Shown: one piece after another, positions 1 to 15,067 of the stretch
How the letters are laid out: each line of letters starts with the position of its first letter
Position numbering within the stretch: position 1 is the first letter of the stretch
Assembly (NCBI GenBank): GCA_030765065.1
Contig: CM060985.1
Location: 4,402,001-4,466,000, forward strand
Origin: Deroplatys truncata
Lineage: Eukaryota > Arthropoda > Insecta > Mantodea > Mantidae
Length of the DNA: 64,000 nucleotides
Direction: 5' to 3'
Notes under the pieces: model-generated
The model's input: only the letters and a program-made list of their open reading frames with translations
Told to the model about the DNA's origin: nothing
Databases searched by the model: none
Program-made: the position numbers and the translations under genes

Positions 1-365
1 ACTCTTAAGGGATTCCTGTCAAGGTGAGGGTGTAATATCTGGAGACATTAGGGGCACTGTTTGGTATAAGACAGAAACTCTTAAGGGATTCCTGTCAAGG
101 TGTGGATGTAATATCTGGAGACATTAGGGGCATTGTTTGGTATAAGACAGAAACTCTTATGGGATTCTTGTCAAGATCAGGATGTAATATCTGGAGATAT
201 TAAGGGCATTGTTTGGTGTAAGAAAGAAACTCTGGGGGCATTGCTGTCAATGTGAGGATGTAATATGTGGTGAGATTAAAGGCACTGTTTTGTGTAAGAA
301 AGAACCTCTGTGGGATTCCTGCCAGGGTCAGGGTGTAATATCTGGAGACATTAAGGAAACTGTCT
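1..365. repeat. 76-bp tandem repeat, about 4.8 copies
   Basis: The landmark AAACTCTTAAGGGATT and its variants recur at about 77, 153, 229 and 305, a 76-bp step. Each copy carries a GTAATATCTGGAGACATTA-like core. Copies diverge from left to right. The array probably extends left of the window and decays into unique sequence after about 365. It does not resemble the 81-bp or 39/40-bp units. Confidence 0.85.
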
Positions 366-1149
366 GTTCCTATATCTGACCATCCCCTCGTCCTGGAGGT
401 TCCCAGAAGGACACTAGCACCACGTTCCTCTTGTACTTTCTTATAACTACAAATATGAGCTGTGTAGTGTTGACAACTACAGGTCTACAAAACTATGTCA
501 TATGCACTCATTAACGCAAGAGTTTTCATGAAATTGGAGAAGTAATAAATGATTACCTTGCACAGTGTGAAATCAATGTTATAGAGAAACCTGTAGATAA
601 TATATAACCAATTTTATGTTTGGATAATTTGTAAACTTTAATGACACAAATGGATTAAGGGCATTGATCTTGGACATATGGTATTCACACTAGCTTTGTG
701 GTTGAGTTGTTCAGCATTCTCTTGGCAAATGTTGCTTTATGTATAATAATTCCTTGGCTTCGTACAGTCTGGTGGTATCATTGTGGGAGTGAACGTGTGT
801 TCAATGTTAACGCAGAAAGCCATACATTTCACAGAGTACATACACCATCAGTAAGTCTTTTCGAAGTCAAAGTCCTCAATTTGACCATAGAAGTTAAAGG
901 AGGCCATGCAAATGAAAGGAAAATGTTTTACTGCATTGTATTCACCTGACTTTTTTTACTCACTCTTCTTACAAAGGCTTAGTGTTCTACCTACTCCAGA
1001 TACACTTTCAATCGACATTTAGATATTTTGTTGTAGGTAAAGTGACACTGGATTTTTATAGAGTGTCGGTTTGTGATGACTTTGAAATTCCACGCTCTGT
1101 GTATCACTATGACAAATAAAGAATAACACTTCAAAACAGTTTTTGAAAA
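366..1149. other. AT-rich non-coding stretch
   Basis: I see no gene here. The open frame at 698-949 (+) has no recognisable domain, AT-biased codons and no splice or promoter context. Confidence 0.5.
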
Positions 1150-1565
1150 TTGAAACCAATTACAAAGAATATGTCAGAAATAATTAACTACACAAAAAAG
1201 TTTTATTTGAATAAACTGTATGATTTAACGAGAGGTTTGAATACTACGATTTTGTCTATCTCTTGTGGTTTACCAGTTATGCAAAAACCATTCTGAAGGA
1301 AGAGGACTTCACAGGCTATTCCCAGAAAACTCAAAATATACATTTTATCTCTCATGTAAATATCTTAAGATATGATTTTTTAATTAAAACTGTTGGAGGC
1401 ATTTTTGAGAAAATCAACAATGATGAAAAAGTTTACATGCAAAGTATAGTTTGGGGTGAGCAGATTTTTTTGAAAACCTACATGCCACATCCTTGGAAGG
1501 TGCTGCAATTTGGTAGTTAAGTGAGGTTTCGTTTTTGAGTTATGCTGTTCGCACAAAGACCTTTT
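1150..1565 (-). repeat. Dispersed repeat, copy 1 (inverted)
   Basis: CACAGGCTATTCCCAGAAAA at 1310-1329 is shared exactly with 14985-15004, and similarity extends on both sides. The copy lies in opposite orientation to the copy at 1710-2370, so the two form an imperfect inverted pair about 150 bp apart. Confidence 0.6.
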
Positions 1566-1709
1566 TCTAAAAAATTGTTTTTACTTTCTCTACCAATACC
1601 TAGTAGGTAGAGGAGGTATTGCATTCCACCCAAGAATTTGATAATGAGATCTCACCGGAAATACATGCTTTGAGGCACCTGAATCCAAATAAAGCATTTG
1701 TCCATGTGT

Positions 1710-2370
1710 GTGTTTGTGAAGAGCAAAACTCAAAAACAAAAAGTTGGGCAGGCAACAAACTTGGGTTTTGTTCAGTATCTTCCAAGCATGCGTCATGAAG
1801 ATTTTCAAGAAAATCCCCACCCCCAACTACCCTTTACATGGAACATTCTTCCAAAACTTTGAGTTTCTAAAAGAATAGTTCTAACAATTTTGATTAAAAC
1901 ACTGTATATTAAAGATATTTATATCATAAATATAATGTATATCTTAAATTTTCTGGAAATACCTTTGAAGTTCTCTTCATGTGGAAGGAATTTTGTATAA
2001 TCTTGTGTAACTGGTAAAGTTTAAGTGATAGACAAAAATGTAGGTAGGTACTGCACAAAAAGATCTCTTTAAAATGCACTATTTATTTCAAATAAGTTTT
2101 TTGGTGGCATAAGCCATTTATGAGATATCCATTATTAATGGTCTGAATTGTTCAATATTGAGCTATTCTATTACAGTGCTGTCCCCATTCAGTTGTTTCT
2201 CGCGATGTCATGGAAACAGTATGGAGCATATAGTGTCCAGTTGTTAAACATTTGACTATCGCTGTTCCCTTTGTATCTGTTTCTATAAAGTTTTATCTCC
2301 ATTAAAATGAAGTAGATAGAAAAATAAACTTTAGTAAGAATAGTTTGTATACTCAATAATAAAGGATAGA
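1710..2370 (+). repeat. Dispersed repeat, copy 2
   Basis: This is an unclassified interspersed repeat of about 0.65 kb. TGTTAAACATTTGACTATC at 2242-2260 recurs at 5869-5887 and, reverse-complemented, at 14683-14701. Flanking similarity includes TCTCGCGATGTCATGGAAAC (also in the 14.7-kb copy) and a TAATTTTGATTAAAA-like stretch. No transposase frame or clear terminal repeats are visible. Confidence 0.65.
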
Positions 2371-2621
2371 AGTCATCATCAGGCCTTTTAAATTTGTGCG
2401 GACCTCAGAGCATGTAGTTGCGGTGAAATGTCGAGATAGGTGTAAGTATGAGGGACAGCACGTCACACAAACAGTGGGCAGCTGTTTACCTCACTTCCAC
2501 ATACTGAACACTATGTTGTGCTGTGTGGGATAAAGGTAGAGCACCCTTTTTAAAGGTAAGGTCTTGGTTAAAACCAAAACAAGATGTGGTTGTGGTGTTA
2601 AAAAAACCCAATTCCTTGAGT
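2371..2621. other. Non-coding stretch downstream of ODAD4
   Basis: A somewhat GC-richer segment (2390-2500) with no convincing exon on either strand. No match to later TTC25 domains was seen. Confidence 0.4.
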
Positions 2622-2627
2622 TTTATT
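2622..2627 (-). promoter_or_regulatory. Poly(A) signal AATAAA downstream of the exon 5 stop
   Basis: A canonical AATAAA lies about 30 nt past the stop codon on the gene strand, followed by a T-run and a GT-containing stretch. It would allow a transcript ending here and so supports the short 369-residue form. AATAAA is common by chance in AT-rich DNA, so this is suggestive only. Confidence 0.45.
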
Positions 2628-2656
2628 TGCTGGTGAAGATCTGGCTGATGGTTACT

Positions 2657-2790
2657 TTAACAAGAGCTGATGACTCTGAATGACATTATCTGCTGTTGTC
2701 TCCAGAACTCTTCTCTCTTGCTGAGGAAGTCCACCCCTTCCTTAGCAAACGACGCTATCTTCTCGTCCTGCTGACTCTCGCACTTGATAT
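2657..2790 (-). CDS. ODAD4: ODAD4 exon 5 (last exon visible), with in-frame stop
   Basis: The acceptor CTTGTTACAG precedes ATATCAAG. The exon encodes residues 326-369, including a helical stretch ending EEFWRQQ, which aligns with the TTC25 sequence before its second TPR block. After FWRQQQ the family similarity ends. The frame continues for ten residues to TAA at 2659-2657 with no strong 5' splice site; only weak GTCATT and GTCATC sites are present. Either this is a short terminal exon or a weak donor is used and later exons lie left of the window. Confidence 0.75.
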
Positions 2791-5700
2791 CTGTAACAAG
2801 AGGCAAGCCTGTAACATGCACACAGGGATGCAGGGGCAAGTGAACGTCATGCACATACCTGGGTGTTTGAGAAGCTGCTCCAGATATTCCTTATCCACAC
2901 AAAGCTCTCCCAGCAGACGTCTCGACTGTTGGTGAATACGCTTGCTACTGCTAGAGGGCACTTTCTTCTTGATAGCTCCAGCTGTGAGCTTACGTTCTGT
3001 AACAACACAAGTGTGCACAGCATAATGTTTGATAAACTTGTTATTTAAGTTGAGCATCCTCCAAAGATGCAACACAAAATCTCCCATTGCAAACTATACT
3101 CTAAAAGGAAGATTTTCTGAAAAGTGCTCTAATTATTTTGATTAAAATACCATACAATCACAAATACAATGTGTATGGCAAGAGCCTGCTAAGTGTTCTT
3201 CACTTGAAAGCAACTTTCTATATTTGTAAAAGAAGCATCATGTTATTTTCTAAAACATTCAAGTTTATGTTTGATTTACTTCTCTTGTTTATTGACTTTA
3301 GCTATCTTAAGGTGTTTATAGACTCTTTTCTGTCCCTTTACATTAAAAACTTATATGATCCACATAATGGACACTGATTTTTGGGGAACTTTTTTTAATG
3401 TTTCTGTTTCTCATGTATGTTTTATTGTTATATATGATTCTAAGGATTCTTTTTTCTAAATCCAGCTAAACAATGTTTGTATTTCTATATCTTCAAGTCT
3501 CCTTTCCAGAAAACATTCACATTATTTTCTTGAAATTTCTCGCAGTGCATTATTGTCCAAGTAGCTGGACCGCTTTTCTTGATAGTGTTGTGTTAACAGA
3601 TGTAGAGGAATATTTAAGAGCTCTCTCTTCAACTTTGCTACGGCGTAACAAAACTTCCTGTGTGCAGGATGTCTAGTGACATATAAGATTTTTGCTTAAA
3701 CTGACATATTATATAACCATAAGAGAGATTAGATCTCGTTAAAGCACACAATTTATGTTATTGGTTTGGATTTTCAAACTACACTTGTTTCAAGTGGTAA
3801 GTCGCTACTTGTTTTTTCTGGTGGTCATACAAAGAACAGTGCCTACTCTATTCTTCTCATTCCTACAATGAAAGAGTAGGCAGTAGAAGAGCTGCAACAC
3901 ACATTGTCAGGAAATCTGGGTAAAACATGAAATTTGGTATTTATCCACAAAGTGGCTTGTGTTGGCCTACTCACTTCCAATAATATTCTCTATAGCCTCT
4001 TGTGCCTTCTGTACTCCGAGACGGAACCCCTGCAGTTCTGGACGCAGACGCAGACCTCTGTGGTAGTACATGAGACTATGTTCAAAGTCCCCCATGTGGT
4101 ACAGTGCCTCGGCCTTCTGGAAGATAGCTGCAACAGTGGGAGTAACTTCTCTACTACAGTATTACCTCCATTACTTCAATCACTTTAAATTATGTTATAT
4201 TGGCATGCCTTACATTTACATTACACATCTCATTGTAGATACAAGAGGAGGCCAGTCTGGCTTAGTATGACATCACTAGAAACAAAAGAATGGTATTGAA
4301 CGGTTGTTTAGAAACAGCTGATGGTATTGTTATTGCTCACACTCACATTGGGAATAGTTCTGTCCTTCTGAGGACTTCACATGTCATCCAAATGAAACAT
4401 TTTCCATGTAAGAGGTAGTTCAAGGCTTGGAGGATTCATTTTAAAAAACCTTTATGTCACATCCTTTACCTGACATTTCACATCCTTTTTCTAAACAATG
4501 CCTCTTTTATTTTTTAAACTCAGAAACTCAACTATGGTAAAAACTGAATATCAAATTTTTGGAATTGAATATAGTTAATGGTAGACAAAGTAAAAATTTG
4601 AACCTTTAAATGCAACTTATATTCAAAATACTACACATAAAAAAGCTGACAATTTTATGAAATTTGCCTAAGTTATGAAACTCACAAGATACAAAATATT
4701 AAAATTAGCCAAAACACGTTAACTGCATTGATTTGGTTCTTACAATTTTCTAAAGGAACTGACTACGCTGGTACGCAACCATTGTTGACTTGAATCCACA
4801 TTGTGTCGTTTGATACACATTTTCATCTTTTCTCTGGATGCACTGTCTACCTGTATCGTTTATGCCTGCTGCTGCTACTTTACCAAGAAATACAGTCTCA
4901 TAACAGATATGGTTTAAAATTCTTCTTGTTCTAAAAGCCAATGCCTCACAATGTACTGGGCTTTAAGTTGCTCAGAAACACTGCCACACGAGCATGTTCT
5001 CAGCTGAAGTAAGTAAGCTTTCAGCTCTTTTCTTACATGTTTGTCTCCTAGCCAGGTTTTGTTAATGTGGCCCAACAAATAGTGAAACTGCTCCTTGTCA
5101 TTTCCCTCTATGACCTAGCACCCACATGAGCATGTTCGGGCTATCTGAGCAGATAAGTGTCTGTTTACCAGTGTAAGTTTTTGTTTGAAGCACAGTAGCA
5201 TATTGCATCCTGTTGCTGAGCCATCTGTAAACCACATCAGCAGTTTTATTTACACAACATTCAGGATCAATGATGACCCTGCAGCTCTTCAGAAAGAGCA
5301 TTTCATTGGAATTACATATATAGTCTGATGTGTTTCCTAACTCTGAGTCAGGGCTTCTCTGAGATAATAAATATTCAGAGGACCCAACCTATCTGTCAAA
5401 ACCATAACTCAAAAATGAAAAAACAGATAAATATCAAATTTGGTATTTCAGGTCCACATCTTCTAAGCATGTGATACAGTAATTTTTAAAAAAATATACT
5501 CCCCAAAGCTACCCTTAACATGGAAAAAGTTTCGTTGGTTTTTATTATTTCAAAACTGGCTATAACAATTTTAATTAAAATACCACAAGTTTAGGATATT
5601 TTCGTGACAAATAAAATGCGTGTGTTGAAATTTGTGGAAGTTGTGCTCATTCTGAATGAGCTTTTGTGAATCATAAGAGACTGACAATGTAAAACAATAT

Positions 5701-8700
5701 AGATCTAAGTAAAACACACAACGTATATCAAATACATTTTTTGCGGCACTAACCATTTATTGCTCTTAATTTTCCAATATTTTTTGAAGCGCGAAGTCAG
5801 CATTGCTTTGTTTCTTGTGATGTTAGACAAACAGTATGGAATTTCAAAGCCAGCATTAGCGATGCACTTGTTAAACATTTGACTATCACTTCAGTCTCCT
5901 CTTGCACCTACAACGAAGCTATTTCTGTAAACATTTATCTTGATTAATGTCAAGTAGATAGAAAAGCAAACAGAGGTGAGTAGCAAAAGCCATATTTGTT
6001 TTAGAAAGTTTTACCTCAAAAACCTTTAAGTAGACGTTAACCTGCCTTATACGACATTTTAGGTGATATAAAATTAATTCATTAGATTTAAAATTTCAGA
6101 CCTAGTCGTCCCAAAGAAGTAAAAATACCCAAATTCTAGCAACCGCTAGCTGGCTCTGGGGAGGAGCAGACACTTGTGGGGTATGAAAACACTCAAGGTA
6201 TTACTTTAGTTTATCTGTGAATCACAAGGAAACAGAAACTTTACTTCCTTCATAAAGAAAGCTATGATAAGGAACTCTACGCATACGGAAACCCATTGTA
6301 TTGAATCTGTGACTTTATTGCAAAACACCAATCAACTTCTACCACTTAATTTTCAACTGAAAGCTGCAGGCTGCATCGAGCACATCAGTGTCTAGTACGA
6401 CGAACAAGTCATAGCAAAAAAACATACTTAGGGAGTTACGTTTGACAGCTTGCTACAATACTCTGAGGCTAACTGGCCCCAGGTTCATTTACTGGTGTTA
6501 TAATCACCTCTGATAAACTTCCGGTCAGACTTGATGGCACTCTAGGTGTTCTGGACGACCAGGCGAGGTTTCTCCAACAGATACTCCTCTCTGATAAACT
6601 TCCTGTCAGACTGGATTGCAGTCTGGGTGTCCTGGAGCGCCAGGTGAGGTTTTCCCAAAAGATACTCACCTCTGATAAACTTCCTGTCAGACTGGATTGC
6701 AGTCTGGGTGTCCTGGAGGGCCAGGTGAGGTTTTCCTAACAGATACTCACCTCTGATAAACTTCCTGTCAGACTGGATTGCAGTCTGGGTGTCCTGGAGA
6801 GCCAGGTGAGGTTTTCCCAACAGATACTCACCTCTGATAAACTTCCTGTCAGACTGGATTGCAGTCTGGTTGTCCTGGAGAACCAGGTGAGGTTTTTCCA
6901 ACAGATACTCACCTTTGATAAACTTCTTGTCAGACTTGATGGCAGTCTGGGTGTCCTGGAGGGCTAGGTGAGGTTTTCTCAACAGATACTCACCTCTGAT
7001 AAACTTCCGGTCAAACTGGATTGCAGTCTGGGTGTACTGGAGGGACAGGTGAGGTTTTCCCAACAGATACCCACCTCTGATAAACTTCCTGTCAGACTTG
7101 ACTGCAGTCTGGGTGCCCTGGAGGGTCAGGTGAGGTTTTCCCAACAGATACTCACCTTTGATAAACTTCCTGTCAGACTTGATGACTCTCCAGGTGTCCT
7201 GAAGGGCCAGGTGAGGTTTTCCCAACAGACTCATCTCTGATAAACTTTCTGTCAGACTTGATGACACTCTAGGTGTACCGAAGGGCCAGGTGAGGTTTTC
7301 CCAACAGATACTCACCTCTGATAAACTTCCTGTCAGATTTGATGACAATCTAGGTGTTCTGAAGGGCCAGGTGAGGTTTTCCCAACAGATACTCACCTCT
7401 GATAAACTTCCTGTCACACTTGATTGCAGTCTGGGTGTCCTGAAGAGCCAGGTGAGGTTTTCTCAACAGATATTCACCTCTGATAAACTTCCTGTCAGAC
7501 TTCATGACTTTCTAGGTGTTCTGGAGGGTAAGGTGAGCTTTTCCCAACAGATACTCACCTCTGATAAACTTCCTGTCAGACTTCATGACTTTCTAGGTGT
7601 TCTGAAGGGCCAGATGAGGTTTTCCTAACAGATACTCACCTCTGATAAACTTCCTGTCAGATTTGATGACAATCTAGGTGTTCTGAAGGGCCAGGTGAGG
7701 TTTTCCCAAAAGATACTCACCTCTGATAAACTTCCTGTCAGACTTGATGACACTCTAGGTGTTCTGAAGGGCCAGGTGAGGCTTTCCCAACAGATACTCA
7801 CTTCTGATAAACTTCCTGTCAGACTTGATTGCAGTCTGGGTGATCTGGAGAGCCAAGTGAGCTTCTTCCAACAGATACTCACCTCTGATAAACTTTCTGT
7901 CATACCTGATGGCAGTTTGGGTGTCCTGGAGAGCCAGGTGAGGTTTTCCCAACAGATACTCACCTCTGATAAACTTCCTGTCACACTTGATTGCAGTCTG
8001 AGTGTCCTGAAGAGCCAGGTGAGGTTTTCTCAACAGATATTCACCTCTGATAAACTTCCTGTCAGACTTGATGGCAGTCTGGGTGTCCTGGAGGGTAAGG
8101 TGAGCTTTTCCCAACAGATACTCACCTCTGATAAACTTCCTGTCAGACTTCATGACTTTCTAGGTGTTCTGAAGGGCCAGATGAGGTTTTCCTAACAGAT
8201 ACTCACCTCTGATAAACTTCCTGTCAGATGTGATGACACTGTAGGTGTACTGAAGGGCCAGGGTGAGGTTTGCCCAACAGATACTCACCTCTGATAAACT
8301 TCCTGTCAGACCTGATGCCACTCTAGGTGTTCTGAAGGGCCAGGTGAGGTTTTCCCAACAGATACTCACCTCTGATAAACTTCCTGTCAGACTTGATGGC
8401 AGTCTGGGAGTCCTGAGGGCCAGGTGAGGTTTTCCCAAAAGATACTCACCTCTGATAAACGTCCTGACAGACTTGATGACACTCTAGGTGTCCTGGAGGG
8501 CCAGGTGAGGTTTTCCCAACAGATACTCGCCTCTGATAAACTTCCTGTCCTACTTGATGGCAGTCTGGGTGTCCTGGAGGGCCAGGTGAGGCTTCCCCAA
8601 CAGATACTCACCTCTAAAAAACTTCCTGTCAGACGTGATGCCACTCTAGGTATCCTGGAACGCCAGACGAGGTTTCCACAACAGATACTCACCACTGATA

Positions 8701-11700
8701 AACTTCCTGTCATACTTGATGGCAGTCTGGTAGTTCTGGAGGGCCAGGTGAGGTTTCCATAACAGATACTCGCCTTTGATAAACTTCCTGTCATATTTGA
8801 TGGCAGTCTAGGTGTCCTGGAGGGCGAGATCAGGTTTTCCCAACAGATACTCACCTCTGATAAACTTCCTGTCAGACTGGATTGCAGTCTGGGTGTCCTG
8901 GAGAGCCAGGTGAGGTTTTCCCAAAAGATACTCACCTCTGATAAACTTCCTGTCAGACTAGATGACACTCTAGGTGTTCTGAAGGGCCAGGTGAGGTTTT
9001 CCCATCAGATACTCACCTCTGATAAACTTCCTGTCAGACTTGATGACACTCTAGGTGTTCTGAAGGTCCAGGTGAGGTTTTCCCAACAGATACTCACCTC
9101 TGATAAATTTCCTGTCAGACTTGATGGCAGTCTGGGGGTCCTTGAGGGCCAGGTGAGGTTTCCCGAACAGATTCTCACCTCTGATAAACTTCCTGTCAGA
9201 CTTGATGACACTCTAGGTGTCCTGGAAGGCCAGGTGAGGTTTTCCCAAAAGATACTCACCTCTGATAAACTTCCTGCCCTACTTGATGGCAGTCTGGGTG
9301 TCCTGGAGGGCCAGGTGAGGCTTCCCCAACAGATACTCACCTCTGATAAACTTTCTGTCAGACTTGATGGCAGTCTGTGAATCCTGGAGGGCCAGGTGAG
9401 GTTTTCCCAACAGATACTCACCTCTGATAAACTTCCTGTCAGACTTGATGACACTCTAGGTGTTCTGAAGGGCCAGGTGAGGATTTGCAAACAGATACTC
9501 ACCTCTGATAAACTTCCTGTTAGACGTGATGACACTCTAGGTGTTCTGAAGGGCGAGGTGAGGTTTTCCCAACAGAACTCACCTATGATAAACTTCCTGT
9601 CGGACTTGTTGGCAGCCTGGGAGTCCTGGAGGGCCAGGTGAGGTTTTCCCAACAGATACCTACTTCTGATAAACCTTCTGTCAGACTTGATGGCACTCTA
9701 GGTGTCCTGGAACGCCAGTCGAGGTTTCCCCAACAGATACTCACCTCTGATATAGTTCTTGTCAGACTTGAGGGCACTCTAGGTGTCCTGGAACGCCAGG
9801 TGAGGTTTTCCCAAACAGATACTCACCTCTGATAAACTTCCTGTCAGACTTGATGGCAGTCTGGGGGTCCTTGAGGGCCAGGTGAGGTTTCCCGAACAGA
9901 TTCTCACCTCTGATAAACTTCCTGTCAGACTTGATGACACTCTAGGTGTCCTGGAAGGCCAGGTGAGGTTTTCCCAAAAGATACTCACCTCTGATAAACT
10001 TCCTGCCCTACTTGATGGCAGTCTGGGTGTCCTGGAGGGCCAGGTGAGGCTTCCCCAACAGATACTCACCTCTGATAAACTTTCTGTCAGACTTGATGGC
10101 AGTCTGTGAATCCTGGAGGGCCAGGTGAGGTTTTCCCAACAGATACTCACCTCTGATAAACTTCCTGTCAGACTTGATGACACTCTAGGTGTTCTGAAGG
10201 GCCAGGTGAGGATTTGCAAACAGATACTCACCTCTGATAAACTTCCTGTTAGACGTGATGACACTCTAGGTGTTCTGAAGGGCGAGGTGAGGTTTTCCCA
10301 ACAGAACTCACCTATGATAAACTTCCTGTCCGACTTGTTGGCAGCCTGGGAGTCCTGGAGGGCCAGGTGAGGTTTTCCCAACAGATACCTACTTCTGATA
10401 AACCTTCTGTCAGACTTGATGGCACTCTAGGTGTCCTGGAACGCCTCGAGGTTTCCCCAACAGATACTCACCTCTGATATAGTTCTTGTCAGACTTGAGG
10501 GCACTCTAGGTGTCCTGGAACGCCAGGTGAGGTTTTCCCAAACAGATACTCACCTCTGATAAACTTCCTGTCAGACTTGATGGCAGTCTGGGTGTCCTTG
10601 AGGGCCAGGTGAGGTTTCCCGAACAGATACTCACCTCTGATAAACTTCCTGTCAGACTTGATGGCAGTCTGGGTGTCCTGGGGGACCAGGCGAGGTTTTC
10701 CCAACAGATACTCACCTCTGATAAACTTCCTGTCAGACTGGATTGCAGTCTGGGTGTCCTGGAGAGCCAGGTGAGCTTCGCCCAGAAGATACTCACCTCT
10801 GATAAACTTCCTGTCAGACTAGATGACACTCTAGGTGTTCTGAAGGGCCAGGTGAGGTTTTCCCAACAGATACTCACCTCTGATAAACTTCCTGTCAGAG
10901 TTGATGACACTCTAGGTGTTCTGAAGGTCCAGGTGAGGTTTTCCCAACAGATACTCACCTCTGATAAATTTCCTGTCAGACTTGATGGCAGCCTGGGGGT
11001 CCTTGAGGGCCAGGTGAGGTTTCCCCAACAGATTCTCACCTGTGATAAACTTCCTGTCAGACTTGATGACACTCTAGGTGTTCTGAAGGTCCAGGTGAGG
11101 TTTACCCAACAGATACTCACCTCTGATAAACTTCCTGTCATACTTGATGACACTCTAGGTGTTCTGAAGGTCCAGGTGAGGTTTCCCCAACAGATTCTCA
11201 CCTCTGATAAACTTCCTGTCAGACTTGATGACACTCTAGGTGTTCTGAAGGGCCAGGTGAGGTTTCCCCAACAGATTCTCACCTCTGATAAACTTCCTGT
11301 CAGACCTGATGACACTCTAGGTGTTCTGAAGGTCCAGGTGAGGTTTCCCCAACAGATACTCACCTCTGATAAACTTCCTGTCATACCTGATGGGAGCTTG
11401 GGTGTCCTGGAGAGCCAGGTGAGCTTCTCCCAACCGATACTCACCTCTAATAAGCTTCCTGTCATACTTGATGGCAATTTGGGTGTACTGGAGAGCCAGG
11501 TGAAGTTTCCCCAACAAATACTCACCTCTGATAAACTTGCTGTTTAGGTGTCCTGGAGGGCCAGGTGAGGTTTTCCCAACAGATACTCACCTCTGATAAA
11601 CTTCCTGTCATACTTGATGGCAGTCTGGGTGTCCTGGAGGGTCAGGTGTAGTTTTCCCAACAGATACTTACATCTGATAAACTTCCTGTCATACTTGATG

Positions 11701-13317
11701 ACACTCTAGGTGTCCTGGAGGGCCATGTGAGGTTTTCCAAAAAGATACTCACCTCTGATAAACTTCCTGTCAGACCTGATTGCAGTCTGGGTGTCCTGGA
11801 GAGGCAGGTGAGCTTATCCCAATAGATACTCACCTCTGATAAACTTCCTGTCAAATTTGATTGCAGTCTGGGTGTCCTGGAGAGCCAGTTGAGCTTCTCT
11901 CAACAGATAATCACCTGTGACATACTTCCTGTCATACTTGATGACACCCTAGGTGTCCTGGAGAGCCAGATGAGCTTCTCCCAACAGATACTCACCTCTG
12001 ATAAACTTCCTGTCAGACGTGATGCCACTCTAGGCGTCCTGGAACTCCAGGCGAGGTTTCTCCAACAGATACTCACCTCTGATAAACTTCCTGTCATACT
12101 TGATGGCAGTCTGGGTGTCCTGGAGGGCCAGGTGAGGTTTCCACAACAGATACTCGCCTCTGGTAAACTTCCTGTCATACGTGATGGTAGTCTGGGTGTC
12201 CTGGAGAGCCAGGTGAGCTTCTCCCAACAGATACTCACCTCTGATAAACTTCCGGTCAGACGTGATGCCACTCTAGGTGTCCTGGAACTCCAGGCGAGGT
12301 TTCCCCAACAGATACTCACCTCTGTTAAACTTCCTGTCAGACCTGTTGGCACTCTATGTGTCCTGGAACACCAAGCGGGGTTTCCCCAATACTCACCTTT
12401 GATAAACTTCCTGTCAGACTTGATGGCACTCTAGGTGTCCTGGCACGCCAAGCGAGGTTTCCCCAACACTCACCTTTGATAAACTTCCTGTCAGACTTGA
12501 TGGCACTCTAGCTGTCCTGGAACGTCAGACGAGGTTCCCCAACAGATACTCACCTCTGATATAGTTCTTGTCAGACTTGAGGGCAGTCTCGGCGTCCTGG
12601 AGAGCCAGCTGAGGTTCCCCCAAGAGCAGATAACATCTACTTCTTGCCACCAGGGCGTTCTTGTCGTTAGGATTCAACTCCAAAGCCTGTAAACACAGAA
12701 ATAAGCTGTCACCATGTGCCACATAATAATCCTCATACTTGCTGACCCTGGTACCCTGACCACACCTTGTGGACGAAGTTGATGGCGATACCCACGTCGC
12801 CACTCCTCAACTCCCTGCTCCCTAGAGCCAACAATGTCCCTGGCTCTGCCTCCTCGGGAAGCTGAAGAGCTTTACTTCTGTCCTGGCGTCTCTTTATCTT
12901 GAGACTTTGCTTGATGTCGTGGGAGCCCATGGCCACGGCGGCGGCCCTATCCTTGTCTGTATACACCTCTTCCTCTCTGCGCTGAGACCTTCCCCGACGA
13001 CGGCCCTTCTTGCTGGTCTTGGCATGCAGCTTGAGTTCCCGGGTCAGCTGCGAGAAACTCGTCTTGCCCGGACTCTTGTCTTCCTCGGGAGTGCGTCTGT
13101 CCTCGTCATCCACGACCGCAGGTTTCTCTGGGGTGGTAGACCTCCTGCGGCGCGGCGGCTTCTCCTCTGCATCCTCCAGGTTGACCCTGAGGAAACTGTG
13201 CAGGACCTCTGTGTCCCTGGATATGTTTAACATGTGGTGTAGCTTGGGTTCCTCCATCTCCGACATGTCAACACTTCTCCCATATGATCGATAGCTGTTG
13301 CTATGGAAACTAAACAT
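2657..13317 (-). CDS. ODAD4: ODAD4/TTC25-like outer dynein arm docking complex protein (5 exons, spliced)
   Basis: Joined exons 13317-12766, 12686-12554, 4127-3975, 2996-2859 and 2790-2657 give 1110 nt, which is 369 residues plus a stop, with matching phases at all four junctions (0,1,1,1). All introns are GT-AG. Three TPRs are visible: residues ~162-193, ~194-228 and ~229-262. They are followed by a helix (FRLGVQKAQEAI, ~265-275), the family motif LLGELCVDKEYLEQLL (307-322) and EEFWRQQ (352-358). This order matches vertebrate TTC25. Family knowledge: ODAD4 is part of the docking complex that anchors outer dynein arms on axonemal doublets, and its loss in humans causes primary ciliary dyskinesia. 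Odd points: an N-terminal extension of about 160 residues before the first TPR; no C-terminal TPR domain (the human protein is about 670 residues); and a short linker between the third TPR and LLGEL. The true 3' end may lie outside the window. The start is the first ATG after upstream non-coding sequence, with A at -3. Confidence 0.85.
2791..2858 (-). other. ODAD4 intron 4 (68 nt) with two in-frame acceptors
   Basis: Two TTACAG acceptors lie 18 nt apart. The downstream one starts the exon at 2790, the upstream one at 2808. The upstream site would add six codons (reading LPLVTD-like) without changing frame. The downstream site gives a spacing between the DKEYLE and FWRQQ motifs closer to that of vertebrate TTC25, so I chose it. 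Confidence 0.6.
2859..2996 (-). CDS. ODAD4: ODAD4 exon 4: linker and LLGEL/DKEYLE motif
   Basis: The acceptor TTGTTACAG precedes AACGTAAG and the donor is CCCAG|GTATGT. The exon is 138 nt, phase 1 at both ends, residues 280-325. A basic, serine-rich linker (KKKVPSSSSKR) leads into LLGELCVDKEYLEQLL, a signature of the TTC25 family. The vertebrate linker is about 30 residues longer and carries a GDLSF-type motif. I could not find an exon for that piece in intron 3, so it is either lost, diverged or missed. Confidence 0.85.
2997..3974 (-). other. ODAD4 intron 3, with dispersed-repeat fragments
   Basis: This is a 978-nt AT-rich intron. Parts at about 3090-3260 and 3690-3790 resemble the dispersed repeat seen at 1710-2370 and 5390-6050. 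Shared features are a TTTTGATTAAAA-type core and an AGATCTCGTTAAAGCACAC-like stretch. No additional in-phase exon is convincing. Confidence 0.55.
3975..4127 (-). CDS. ODAD4: ODAD4 exon 3: TPR3
   Basis: The acceptor TGTTGCAG precedes CTATCTTCC and the donor is GGAA|GTGAGT. The exon is 153 nt, phase 1 at both ends, residues 229-279. It encodes the third TPR (QKAEALYHMGDFEHSLMYYH) and then RLRPEL and a helix containing FRLGVQKAQEAI. This is the most diagnostic match to the vertebrate TTC25 N-terminal TPR block. Confidence 0.9.
4914..5388 (-). pseudogene. Decayed or unidentified coding-like segment inside intron 2
   Basis: On the minus strand a frame is open from 5388 to a stop at 5098. It includes FLKSCRVIIDPECCVN and DVVYRWLSNRMQYATVLQ. 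Coding-like sequence then continues in the +1 frame (EQFHYLLGHINKTWLGDKH, RKELKAYLLQLRTCSCG) to a stop at 4914. Two abutting open frames with protein-like composition, in otherwise AT-rich DNA, suggest one ancestral frame broken by a single frameshift near 5105. I do not recognise the family. It could be a fragment of a mobile element, a retrocopy, or a nested or alternative exon. Confidence 0.3.
5390..6050 (+). repeat. Dispersed repeat, copy 3 (in ODAD4 intron 2)
   Basis: The copy carries TGTTAAACATTTGACTATC at 5869-5887 and aligns over most of its length with 1710-2370. One shared part is ATCTTCTAAGCATG versus ATCTTCCAAGCATG. It is more diverged in its middle. Confidence 0.6.
6503..12553 (-). 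repeat. 81-bp minisatellite derived from ODAD4 exon 2 end plus its 5' splice site (~75 copies)
   Basis: The landmark GATAAACTTCCTGTCAGA recurs every 81 bp, for example at 9021 and 9102. On the gene strand a unit reads from TATCTGTTGGG through a copy of exon 2 codons (PHLALQDTQTAIKSDRKFIR, compare PQLALQDAETALKSDKNYIR in the exon) to AGAG|GTGAG. Each unit therefore carries an exon 2 half-TPR plus a donor site. The unit is three bases shorter than the matching exon/intron stretch: one CTC codon is missing. The array abuts the real exon 2 directly. 81 is 27 codons, so frames stay open for hundreds of residues on both strands, but point and indel changes break them. A few units near 12360-12480 lack 9 nt. 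The array lies wholly in intron 2. Confidence 0.92.
9005..10540 (-). repeat. 729-bp higher-order duplication inside the 81-bp array
   Basis: A block of nine 81-bp units near 9110-9830 recurs 729 bp further on (9840-10560) with only a few differences. One is GTCGGACTTG versus GTCCGACTTG. Another is a 2-nt deletion (CGCCAGTCGAGG versus CGCCTCGAGG). The same odd variants, such as the 3-nt-shorter CAACAGAACTCACC unit and GGATTTGCAAACAG, occur in the same order in both blocks. Confidence 0.85.
12554..12686 (-). CDS. ODAD4: ODAD4 exon 2: TPR1 end and TPR2
   Basis: The acceptor TTTACAG lies directly before GCTTTGGAG. The exon encodes residues 185-228 plus one base and covers ALELNPNDKNALVARSR and the second half of TPR2 (LGEPQLALQDAETALKSD). 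It ends AGAG|GTGAGT, a near-perfect 5' splice site. The 3' part of this exon and its donor are the parent of the 81-bp tandem array that follows directly in the intron. If the donor is not used, the frame stops within about 10 codons, near 12525. Confidence 0.9.
12687..12765 (-). other. ODAD4 intron 1 (79 nt)
   Basis: A short intron from GTGTGG to TTTACAG. Removing it joins phase 0 to phase 0 inside TPR1, at INFVHK|ALELNPND, which restores a continuous TPR. Confidence 0.85.
12766..13317 (-). CDS. ODAD4: ODAD4 exon 1: start codon, charged N-terminal extension, first TPR
   Basis: This exon encodes residues 1-184 and ends in phase 0 at CACAAG|GTGTGG. Residues ~50-150 are strongly charged: an RRRR run, EEDK stretches, a KKGRRRGR cluster and many E/D residues. 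That part is probably disordered. The first TPR begins at about residue 162 (LLALGSRELRSGDVGIAI) and is completed by exon 2. A second ATG at residue 18 (MSEMEEPK) is a possible alternative start. The exon is clearly more GC-rich than the flanking DNA. Confidence 0.85.
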
Positions 13318-14679
13318 TTTCTATCGCTGCGTGCTTTCACTTGTTATGCGCATTTAACAAAATGTTAAATAAAATTGCAAGCGAGGGCGATAGTGAGTAT
13401 TTGTAGAATGTCATGTTTGTAAAAAAGAAATGAAATTTGTTTATATTTGAGAGCTACTTTCTAATGTTTTGTTCGATTTCTCTAATACTTTGTTAATTAT
13501 GATCATTTAAAGGCTTTGTCTTCAACTTGAGAACATATGCGGTCATTAACGCCTAAACAATGTGAAGAAACGCATTTGGCGAGGAAACCCCATTTAGGGC
13601 AACAATTTATAATTGGAACAGCGAATTCAAAGAGATCTTTTTTTTCTTTTCTTTCTTTCTTGGTGATGAATTTCGTGAAGGACGCCCAAGAACTGCTGTT
13701 ACTGATTAAAATATTGCCGCTGCTTGAAGAAGATCGACAGACATGTTTTGAATTTATTCGGGCAGGCATTGTTACGGGTTAAATTCAAAACATTTTACAT
13801 CAACAGCTAGACATGATTCCACGTAAACTGACTCCCCAGGGAGCACTTCAAATTTGGTTTGGATTTATTGTTATGATGTTGAAAACAAAAGACAATCGGC
13901 TCGATGGGTCTTTCTATTAAAGTTCGATGAACTCGCAGTGCTGTCAAGAAGATGGTTGCTTCTAAACCGGGTCACATTGCTAATATAGACACAGCGTTAC
14001 CGCAAACAGCCAAAAGGAAAAATAATGTTACATGAGACAAGGCATCGTCGCAAAACTAACAACTGAATGCACCATACAGCCCTCGCGATTTTTTTTTCTT
14101 TCCAAAACTTAAAGTTAAAATGCGTGGGAAATTATAGAAACCTGGTTCTTTAAGTGCCTCAGAATTTCATCGAATGCAGAAATGTACTCAAGTTGGGGGG
14201 GGGGCATGTTTTGAAAAATAATAAAATAATTTTTTTTAAATTAATCCTTGTTCGATTTTCTAAAAGCTTTAAGTGTTGCCTCGTATAGCATATTTTTCAA
14301 AATAATTGTAACAAAATTAACTTTCATGATCCGGTGTACCTAAGCCTCCCATATATAACTGCTCATACAAACTCATTCTTGTTAATGCACTTTGATTGTT
14401 GTACATATAAAACAATACAGAAGGCTAAAGCGATAGCCAGATTTTCTAAGCCGGATCACTATTTGATGCTTTGAAACTATTCTCTTTGCATGACCATGAG
14501 AAATACGGACTTGCCGTGGAAAAGAATCTGATGTGTTACATTCACGTGAGTTTCTCTACCCACCATCGCTTATTACTGGGTATACAAGCTATTATTCTTA
14601 TGCAACTTTATTTTCCTATCTACTTCATTTTAATCCAGATAAACCTTTACAGAAACAGCTACATTACGTTATAGAGAAC
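13318..14679. other. ODAD4 upstream flank and presumed promoter region
   Basis: This AT-rich flank precedes the ODAD4 start codon. I see no convincing TATA box at a useful distance and no CpG-rich block beyond exon 1 itself. Low-complexity tracts are a T/C run at 13636-13661 and ten G at 14195-14204. The plus-strand frame at 13537-13782 (81 residues) begins about 220 bp upstream of the ODAD4 ATG in divergent orientation. It has no recognisable domain and I do not call it a gene. Confidence 0.5.
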
Positions 14680-15045
14680 AGCGATAGTCAAATGTTTAAC
14701 AACTGGACGCTATATGCTGGTCTTAAAATTCCGTACTGTTTCCATGACATCGCGAGAAAACAACTGAAAATCGACAGAACTTGAAAAGAATGACTAAGTG
14801 CTGAACAATTCGAACCATTAATAACGGATATCTCGGAAATGTCTGATGCTACAAAACAATTGTTTGAAATAAATTGTGTGTTTTAAAGAGATATACATTT
14901 CTTGTGTAGTATGTTTCCGTCTATCACTTAACGTTTACCAGTTACATAACATTATACAAAATTCCTTCGAAATGAAGAGGTCTTCACAGGCTATTCCCAG
15001 AAAATTGAAATTATACATTTTATTTGTCATGTACATATTTTTAAT
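14680..15045 (-). repeat. Dispersed repeat, copy 4 (inverted)
   Basis: The reverse complement aligns with 1710-2370. It shares GATAGTCAAATGTTTAACA at 14683-14701 and CACAGGCTATTCCCAGAAAA at 14985-15004, along with long flanking similarity. It ends at the (ATGA)n tract. Confidence 0.65.
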
Positions 15046-15067
15046 ATGAATGAATGAATGAATGAAT
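15046..15067. repeat. (ATGA)n microsatellite
   Basis: About five tandem copies of ATGA, at the edge of dispersed-repeat copy 4. Its position suggests an element tail, which is inference. Confidence 0.8.

Follow-up and report, generated by a model that had tools for sequence, protein, structure and literature searches.

The window analysed here, a 64,000-nucleotide stretch of the Deroplatys truncata genome, carries an ODAD4-like gene, a gene of cilia, on its minus strand. The second intron of this gene is 8.4 kb in length and begins with a long tandem array whose units resemble the end of exon 2 together with its 5' splice site. Coordinates of the gene, of the array and of the units discussed below are given in Table 1.

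Table 1. Positions of the exons, the array and selected units within the window
Feature	Position	Strand	Evidence
Exon 1, coding part, from ATG to donor AAG|GTGTGG	12766..13266	-	Open translation; donor PWM score 8.05
Exon 2, 133 nt, acceptor TTTACAG|GCT, TPR segment	12554..12686	-	Acceptor score 10.44; Pfam TPR_17; ODAD4 chains
Parent unit: last 73 nt of exon 2 and first 8 nt of intron 2	12546..12626	-	Wrap-around alignment
Start of intron 2, true donor GAG|GTGAGT, +1 at 12553	12545..12553	-	PWM score 11.24; U1 duplex -12.7; ODAD4 frame across exons 2 and 3
In-frame TGA, 26 nt after the end of exon 2, before every decoy donor	12525..12527	-	Translation; first decoy +1 at 12473
75 tandem decoy units of about 81 bp, exon-like sequence with an intact or mutated donor copy	6500..12545	-	TRF; alignment; donor scoring
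Region of the 9-unit duplication, units 26-35 versus 35-44	9090..10626	-	Nine of ten unit pairs 98.8-100% identical, one 96.2%
Unit 27, exon sequence throughout columns 41-80 (40/40)	10464..10545	-	51-nt exact match to the exon/intron junction, from 10503 into unit 28
Unit 36, duplicate of unit 27, columns 41-80 exon-identical	9737..9818	-	51-nt exact match starting at 9776
Exon 3, 153 nt, acceptor GTTGCAG|CTA	3975..4127	-	Acceptor scoring; ODAD4 alignment
Exon 4, 138 nt	2859..2996	-	Gene model; ODAD4 alignment
Exon 5, apparently terminal: TAA at 2659-2657, AATAAA starting at 2627	2627..2790	-	Gene model; ODAD4 alignment

Results

An open frame extends through exons 1-4 into exon 5, with fair scores for all four donors and all four acceptors. 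All donor and acceptor scores in this work rest on approximate scoring tables rather than on MaxEnt; by these tables the three other scored donors (8.05, 7.67 and 9.97) fall below the true donor of exon 2 (11.24). In a comparison with solved chains, the protein translated from exon 2 onward ranked the ODAD4 (TTC25) chains 7rro, 9cpc and 8j07 first, with E values of 6e-39 to 2e-37. For two other queries, engineered consensus TPR proteins outranked ODAD4, which was the best natural protein. The Pfam TPR_17 match in exon 2 was just above the cut-off. The identification of the gene as ODAD4 in a preliminary description of this DNA is upheld by these best natural matches, which are collinear over the TPR region, and so is its joining of exon 2 to exon 3, across which the alignment to the solved ODAD4 chains is free of gaps. 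Since this alignment fixes the join, 12553 is the +1 of the protein-preserving donor. The array is thereby placed between a donor and an acceptor that already yield an ODAD4-collinear protein.

The match to ODAD4 stops near residue 244 of the 683-residue 7rro chain and is followed by the TAA, with an AATAAA approximately 30 nt past it. Exon 5 appears to be the last, which would limit the gene to the N-terminal third of ODAD4, and the C-terminal two thirds were not found in the sequence from the window start onward. Because the match reaches only this far, we may be dealing with a short paralogue or else with a truncated copy.

TRF reported an 81-bp unit in 76 copies, with 85% matches, at 6500-12623. 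A wrap-around alignment was used in place of a fuzzy donor-core pattern, which gave only 45 matches, and it divided 12626-6500 into 76 units. The first of these, unit 1, is the end of the exon, and 75 more follow it without a gap, as the preliminary description had held. The mean pairwise identity of the units is 86%, with private and subfamily substitutions among them, so that the array has the tandem head-to-tail units, the many copies and the variant units of a minisatellite.

The consensus of the 75 units is 86% identical to the exon segment, and single units are on average 81% identical to it (range 74-89%). In the remainder of the window (positions 1-6499 and 12687-64000), no ungapped match to the exon segment on either strand was better than 49%, and a gapped search of that same sequence returned just one 12-nt word (E 0.2). 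The unit is therefore derived from exon 2, the adjacent exon. Such an alignment had been named beforehand as the result that could overturn an exon 2 origin, and the origin stood; the extent and composition first given for the array needed correction, in that the unit holds 73 rather than about 75 nt of exon and the original range took in exon 2 in full (12554-12686), whereas the decoys themselves occupy 6500-12545. The consensus differs from the exon at 11 of 81 columns, and eight of these differences would be protein-changing, including one GAG to TAG (codons read by eye), as expected for sequence freed from coding. The sequence is TTATCTGCTCTTGGGGG in the exon and GTATCTGTTGGGG at the intron start; TATCTG is common to both and could have mediated the initial duplication.

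A protein-coding reading of the array was considered and rejected, as the exon frame hits a TGA 26 nt past the exon and only 35/75 units are free of stops in the exon phase. This TGA cuts every extended exon 2 at codon 221. It precedes every decoy donor, so the use of any decoy as the exon 2 donor would truncate the protein, and mRNAs arising from decoy donors would probably be degraded. At the exon's GAG codon, TAG is found in 37/75 units.

Exact AGAG|GTGAGT is present in 49/75 units and the GT in 70/75; when units 35-44, the second copies of the 9-unit duplication, are left out, the exact donor is present in 42/65. The sense-strand donor score is at least that of the true donor in 53/75 units, compared with a mean of 0.99 such sites (maximum 4) in 100 dinucleotide shuffles, and in 49/75 decoys the U1 duplex energy equals or betters that of the true site. 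CTCCAG occurs 34 times and CTTCAG 22 times in 6490-12700, exon included, and the AG at the unit-internal CTCCAG site is kept in 74/75 units. Both AG and GT are intact in 70/75 units, where they delimit 43 nt in 69 cases and 27 nt in unit 14. The earlier picture of dozens of near-perfect decoy donors, most with the full donor motif and an upstream CTCCAG or CTTCAG and each resembling a 43-nt exon, agrees with this scoring of every unit, which had been suggested as a check.

Constraint on the donor copies was assessed from parsimony changes counted on a FastTree tree of the units, which is poorly resolved, being built from 81 columns. The ten donor columns carried 26 changes, where ten-column windows averaged 29.5 (rank 29/81 from the lowest; permutation p 0.35), and the nine-column donor core likewise showed no excess constraint (permutation p 0.51). 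The columns were thus no more constrained than the rest, when greater constraint would be expected of a selected array of functional 5' splice sites. Raw retention points the other way: the exact donor is seen in 49/75 units against 31 expected from mean divergence, so a weak donor constraint is possible. Donor retention showed no trend along the array (17, 16 and 16 of 25), and no link appeared between donor state and the presence of T or C in the stop-codon column (p 0.32, one gapped unit left out).

Among nine-column windows, in which retention has a mean of 35.3 (s.d. 16.9), the sense donor is intact in 49/75 units (rank 23/81) and the opposite, plus-strand motif CAG|GTGAGG in 47/75 (rank 26/81). 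This motif is missing from the matching stretch of exon 2 and thus probably arose inside the array. On the plus strand of 6500-12553, 46 donor-like sites score at least as high as the true donor, versus a mean of 0.54 in 100 shuffles. On balance, the sequence does not support a maintained function of the decoys, and drift with turnover would suffice.

The 9-unit duplication shows that the array turns over in segments and, in this one haplotype, suggests recent segmental growth or length change. Units 27 and 36 match the exon/intron junction exactly over 12585-12535. Their patch contains four exon states, and the two at columns 45 and 62 are confined to these units. In its simplest reading the patch suggests gene conversion, or that the boundary was copied into the array anew; a surviving ancestral piece, or transfer in the reverse direction, is also possible. 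Transfer from array to exon would often be harmful, given the frequency of TAG at the GAG codon.

Other repeats occur in the window. A 40-bp satellite of approximately 1215 copies (also seen as a 79-bp dimer) occupies 15914-63998 and reaches the window end; its minus strand contains GTATGT 248 times and GTGAGT 26 times. A minisatellite with a 76-bp unit and 4.8 copies, whose consensus contains AAGGTGAGG, lies at 1-363 and reaches the window start. Counts of six donor motifs in these two repeats revealed nothing tying either to the exon 2 array. Members of a dispersed repeat family (1906-2362 and 14570-15047; 1244-1505 and 1773-2043; 5403-5971) are 67-77% identical and are found in both orientations around the gene. 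The region 13531-14035, which by eye we take to resemble a decayed transposase gene, gave no Pfam match at 0.1 for its three fragments.

Discussion

We consider it probable that the array is a neutral intronic minisatellite, founded from an exon end and its 5' splice site and now drifting, and that almost all functional mRNA is made with the authentic first donor. This reading builds on the origin of the unit, the copy number, the donor strength by a simple score, the lack of a detected selection signal and the stop; for the duplication mechanism, the choice of donor and the decay of mRNA, we infer the following course. The founding step would have been a tandem duplication of the exon end with its own 5' splice site, followed by expansion and homogenisation through unequal exchange and larger segmental duplications, with the copies drifting as non-coding sequence. 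Decoy donors would then persist through turnover of the array rather than through selection. Of all the donors the first is most likely the one used, since transcription reaches it before the others and it closes an ordinary 133-nt exon whose acceptor is good. Mistaken use of a decoy as the exon 2 donor would lead into the TGA just past the true exon end, to a truncated protein and probably to decay of the mRNA.

U1 may well bind many of the decoys. It is reported, with citation of other work, to protect approximately 35 nt (23 exonic and 12 intronic) (PMC6002489), and with a spacing of 81 nt all decoys could be occupied at once. The same source, again citing others, describes the intron-proximal of two comparable donors as favoured (PMC6002489). 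At this locus such a bias would pick the wrong end of the array and predicts trouble for the first donor, and this is why the locus merits testing.

A truncated or non-functional ODAD4 paralogue would leave the intron under little splicing constraint, so that an array could grow unchecked. This is compatible with a neutral minisatellite, and as an explanation in its own right we regard it as possible but doubtful. The apparent stop in exon 5, the AATAAA close behind it and a match that covers 7rro only to residue 244 all point in its direction; the frame that is open from exon 1 into exon 5, with fairly scoring donors and acceptors, speaks against it.

It is rather unlikely that the array is itself spliced, with decoy donors and the CTCCAG acceptors of the units serving recursive or nested removal of the 8.4-kb intron or giving poison isoforms that tune output. 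The joint retention of AG and GT is in keeping with splicing, and 56/74 unit acceptors reach or exceed the lowest score among the four real acceptors scored in the gene, versus 6/157 AGs in the rest of the intron, but these scores come from the approximate matrices. A single unit exon between exons 2 and 3 would bring a stop within the unit in 64/70 cases, or a frame shift and a stop in exon 3 in 5/70, and unit 14 alone would be open through exon 3; this suits poison isoforms, the output of which would be nearly uniform. Against splicing of the array stand the lack of a selection signal on the donors and the distance from a donor to the next acceptor, just 34-39 nt (38 nt in 64/75). Usual animal introns are longer, and units would therefore have to be skipped.

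We think it very improbable that the donors form a selected U1-binding platform, for example one that shields the transcript from early polyadenylation at AATAAA sites past the array. The U1 duplex energies of the decoys would allow it, and all five AATAAA of intron 2 (6319, 5761, 5546, 5250 and 4511) lie 3' of the array, but AT-rich sequence would be expected to contain hexamers of this type anyway, the donor columns are without excess constraint, and the donor-like site on the opposite strand is kept equally well. Least probable of all is inflation of the copy number or misassembly of the array: near-identical 9-unit blocks and the adjacent 48-kb satellite are hard to assemble, but stutter would not produce private and subfamily substitutions at a mean pairwise identity of 86%, and the false part would be at most the 9-unit block.

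The neutral minisatellite that we favour has partial counterparts. Intron gain by tandem duplication of AGGT-containing segments is described under the Rogers model, with ATP2A1 and a potato RdRp as examples (PMC4974935). There, as here, an exon-side AG|GT is duplicated in tandem, and the potato case crosses an intron-exon boundary; however, a new intron arises from one or a few copies, (PMC4974935), whereas the 75 copies found here are contained within an intron, of which they repeat the donor end only. The fission yeast genes SPOG_01682 and SOCG_00815 have introns of 24-nt tandem repeats that resemble the neighbouring exon (PMC3629103, PMC4974935). AGGT is contained in the repeated segment, of which the introns comprise four or two copies (PMC4974935); one of these repeat-built introns is said to need further checking (PMC3629103). 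They differ from the present case in having two to four 24-nt copies and new introns, as opposed to 75 copies of 81 nt beside an exon end.

VNTR6-1 in TERT intron 6 is likewise an intronic minisatellite of similar copy number, with a 38-bp unit in 24-66.5 repeats, and its deletion altered TERT isoform ratios (PMC11830802). Unlike the mantis array, it is linked to G-quadruplexes and lies approximately 3.5 kb upstream of exon 7, and the available text describes neither an exon-derived unit nor repeated donors (PMC11830802). GYNGYN tandem donors are also adjacent and competing, with U1 binding as one determinant, but they comprise two donors 3 nt apart and no repeat array (PMC1779574). Among the open-licence papers listed by exact-word searches, judged by titles and abstract starts, no description of a long array of exon-plus-donor units was found.

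Conclusions

The locus shows that an exon boundary is able to seed a minisatellite. We put forward tentatively that the true 5' splice site is reliably chosen here despite approximately 50-60 equally strong copies, spaced by about 81 nt and each preceded by exon-like sequence, and that the array is a store of exon copies, half of them stop-bearing, which exchange with the live exon. The array and its parent exon may exchange sequence, a possible mutational hazard with about half of the units carrying TAG. How one of two comparable 5' splice sites becomes favoured is described as not known (PMC6002489). If the true donor is reliably chosen, neither nearness to the 3' splice site nor affinity for U1 can decide the choice, and first-come recognition or exon-defining context must do so. 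With dozens of matched competitor donors in their native context, the locus would be an unusually clean natural test of splice-site choice.
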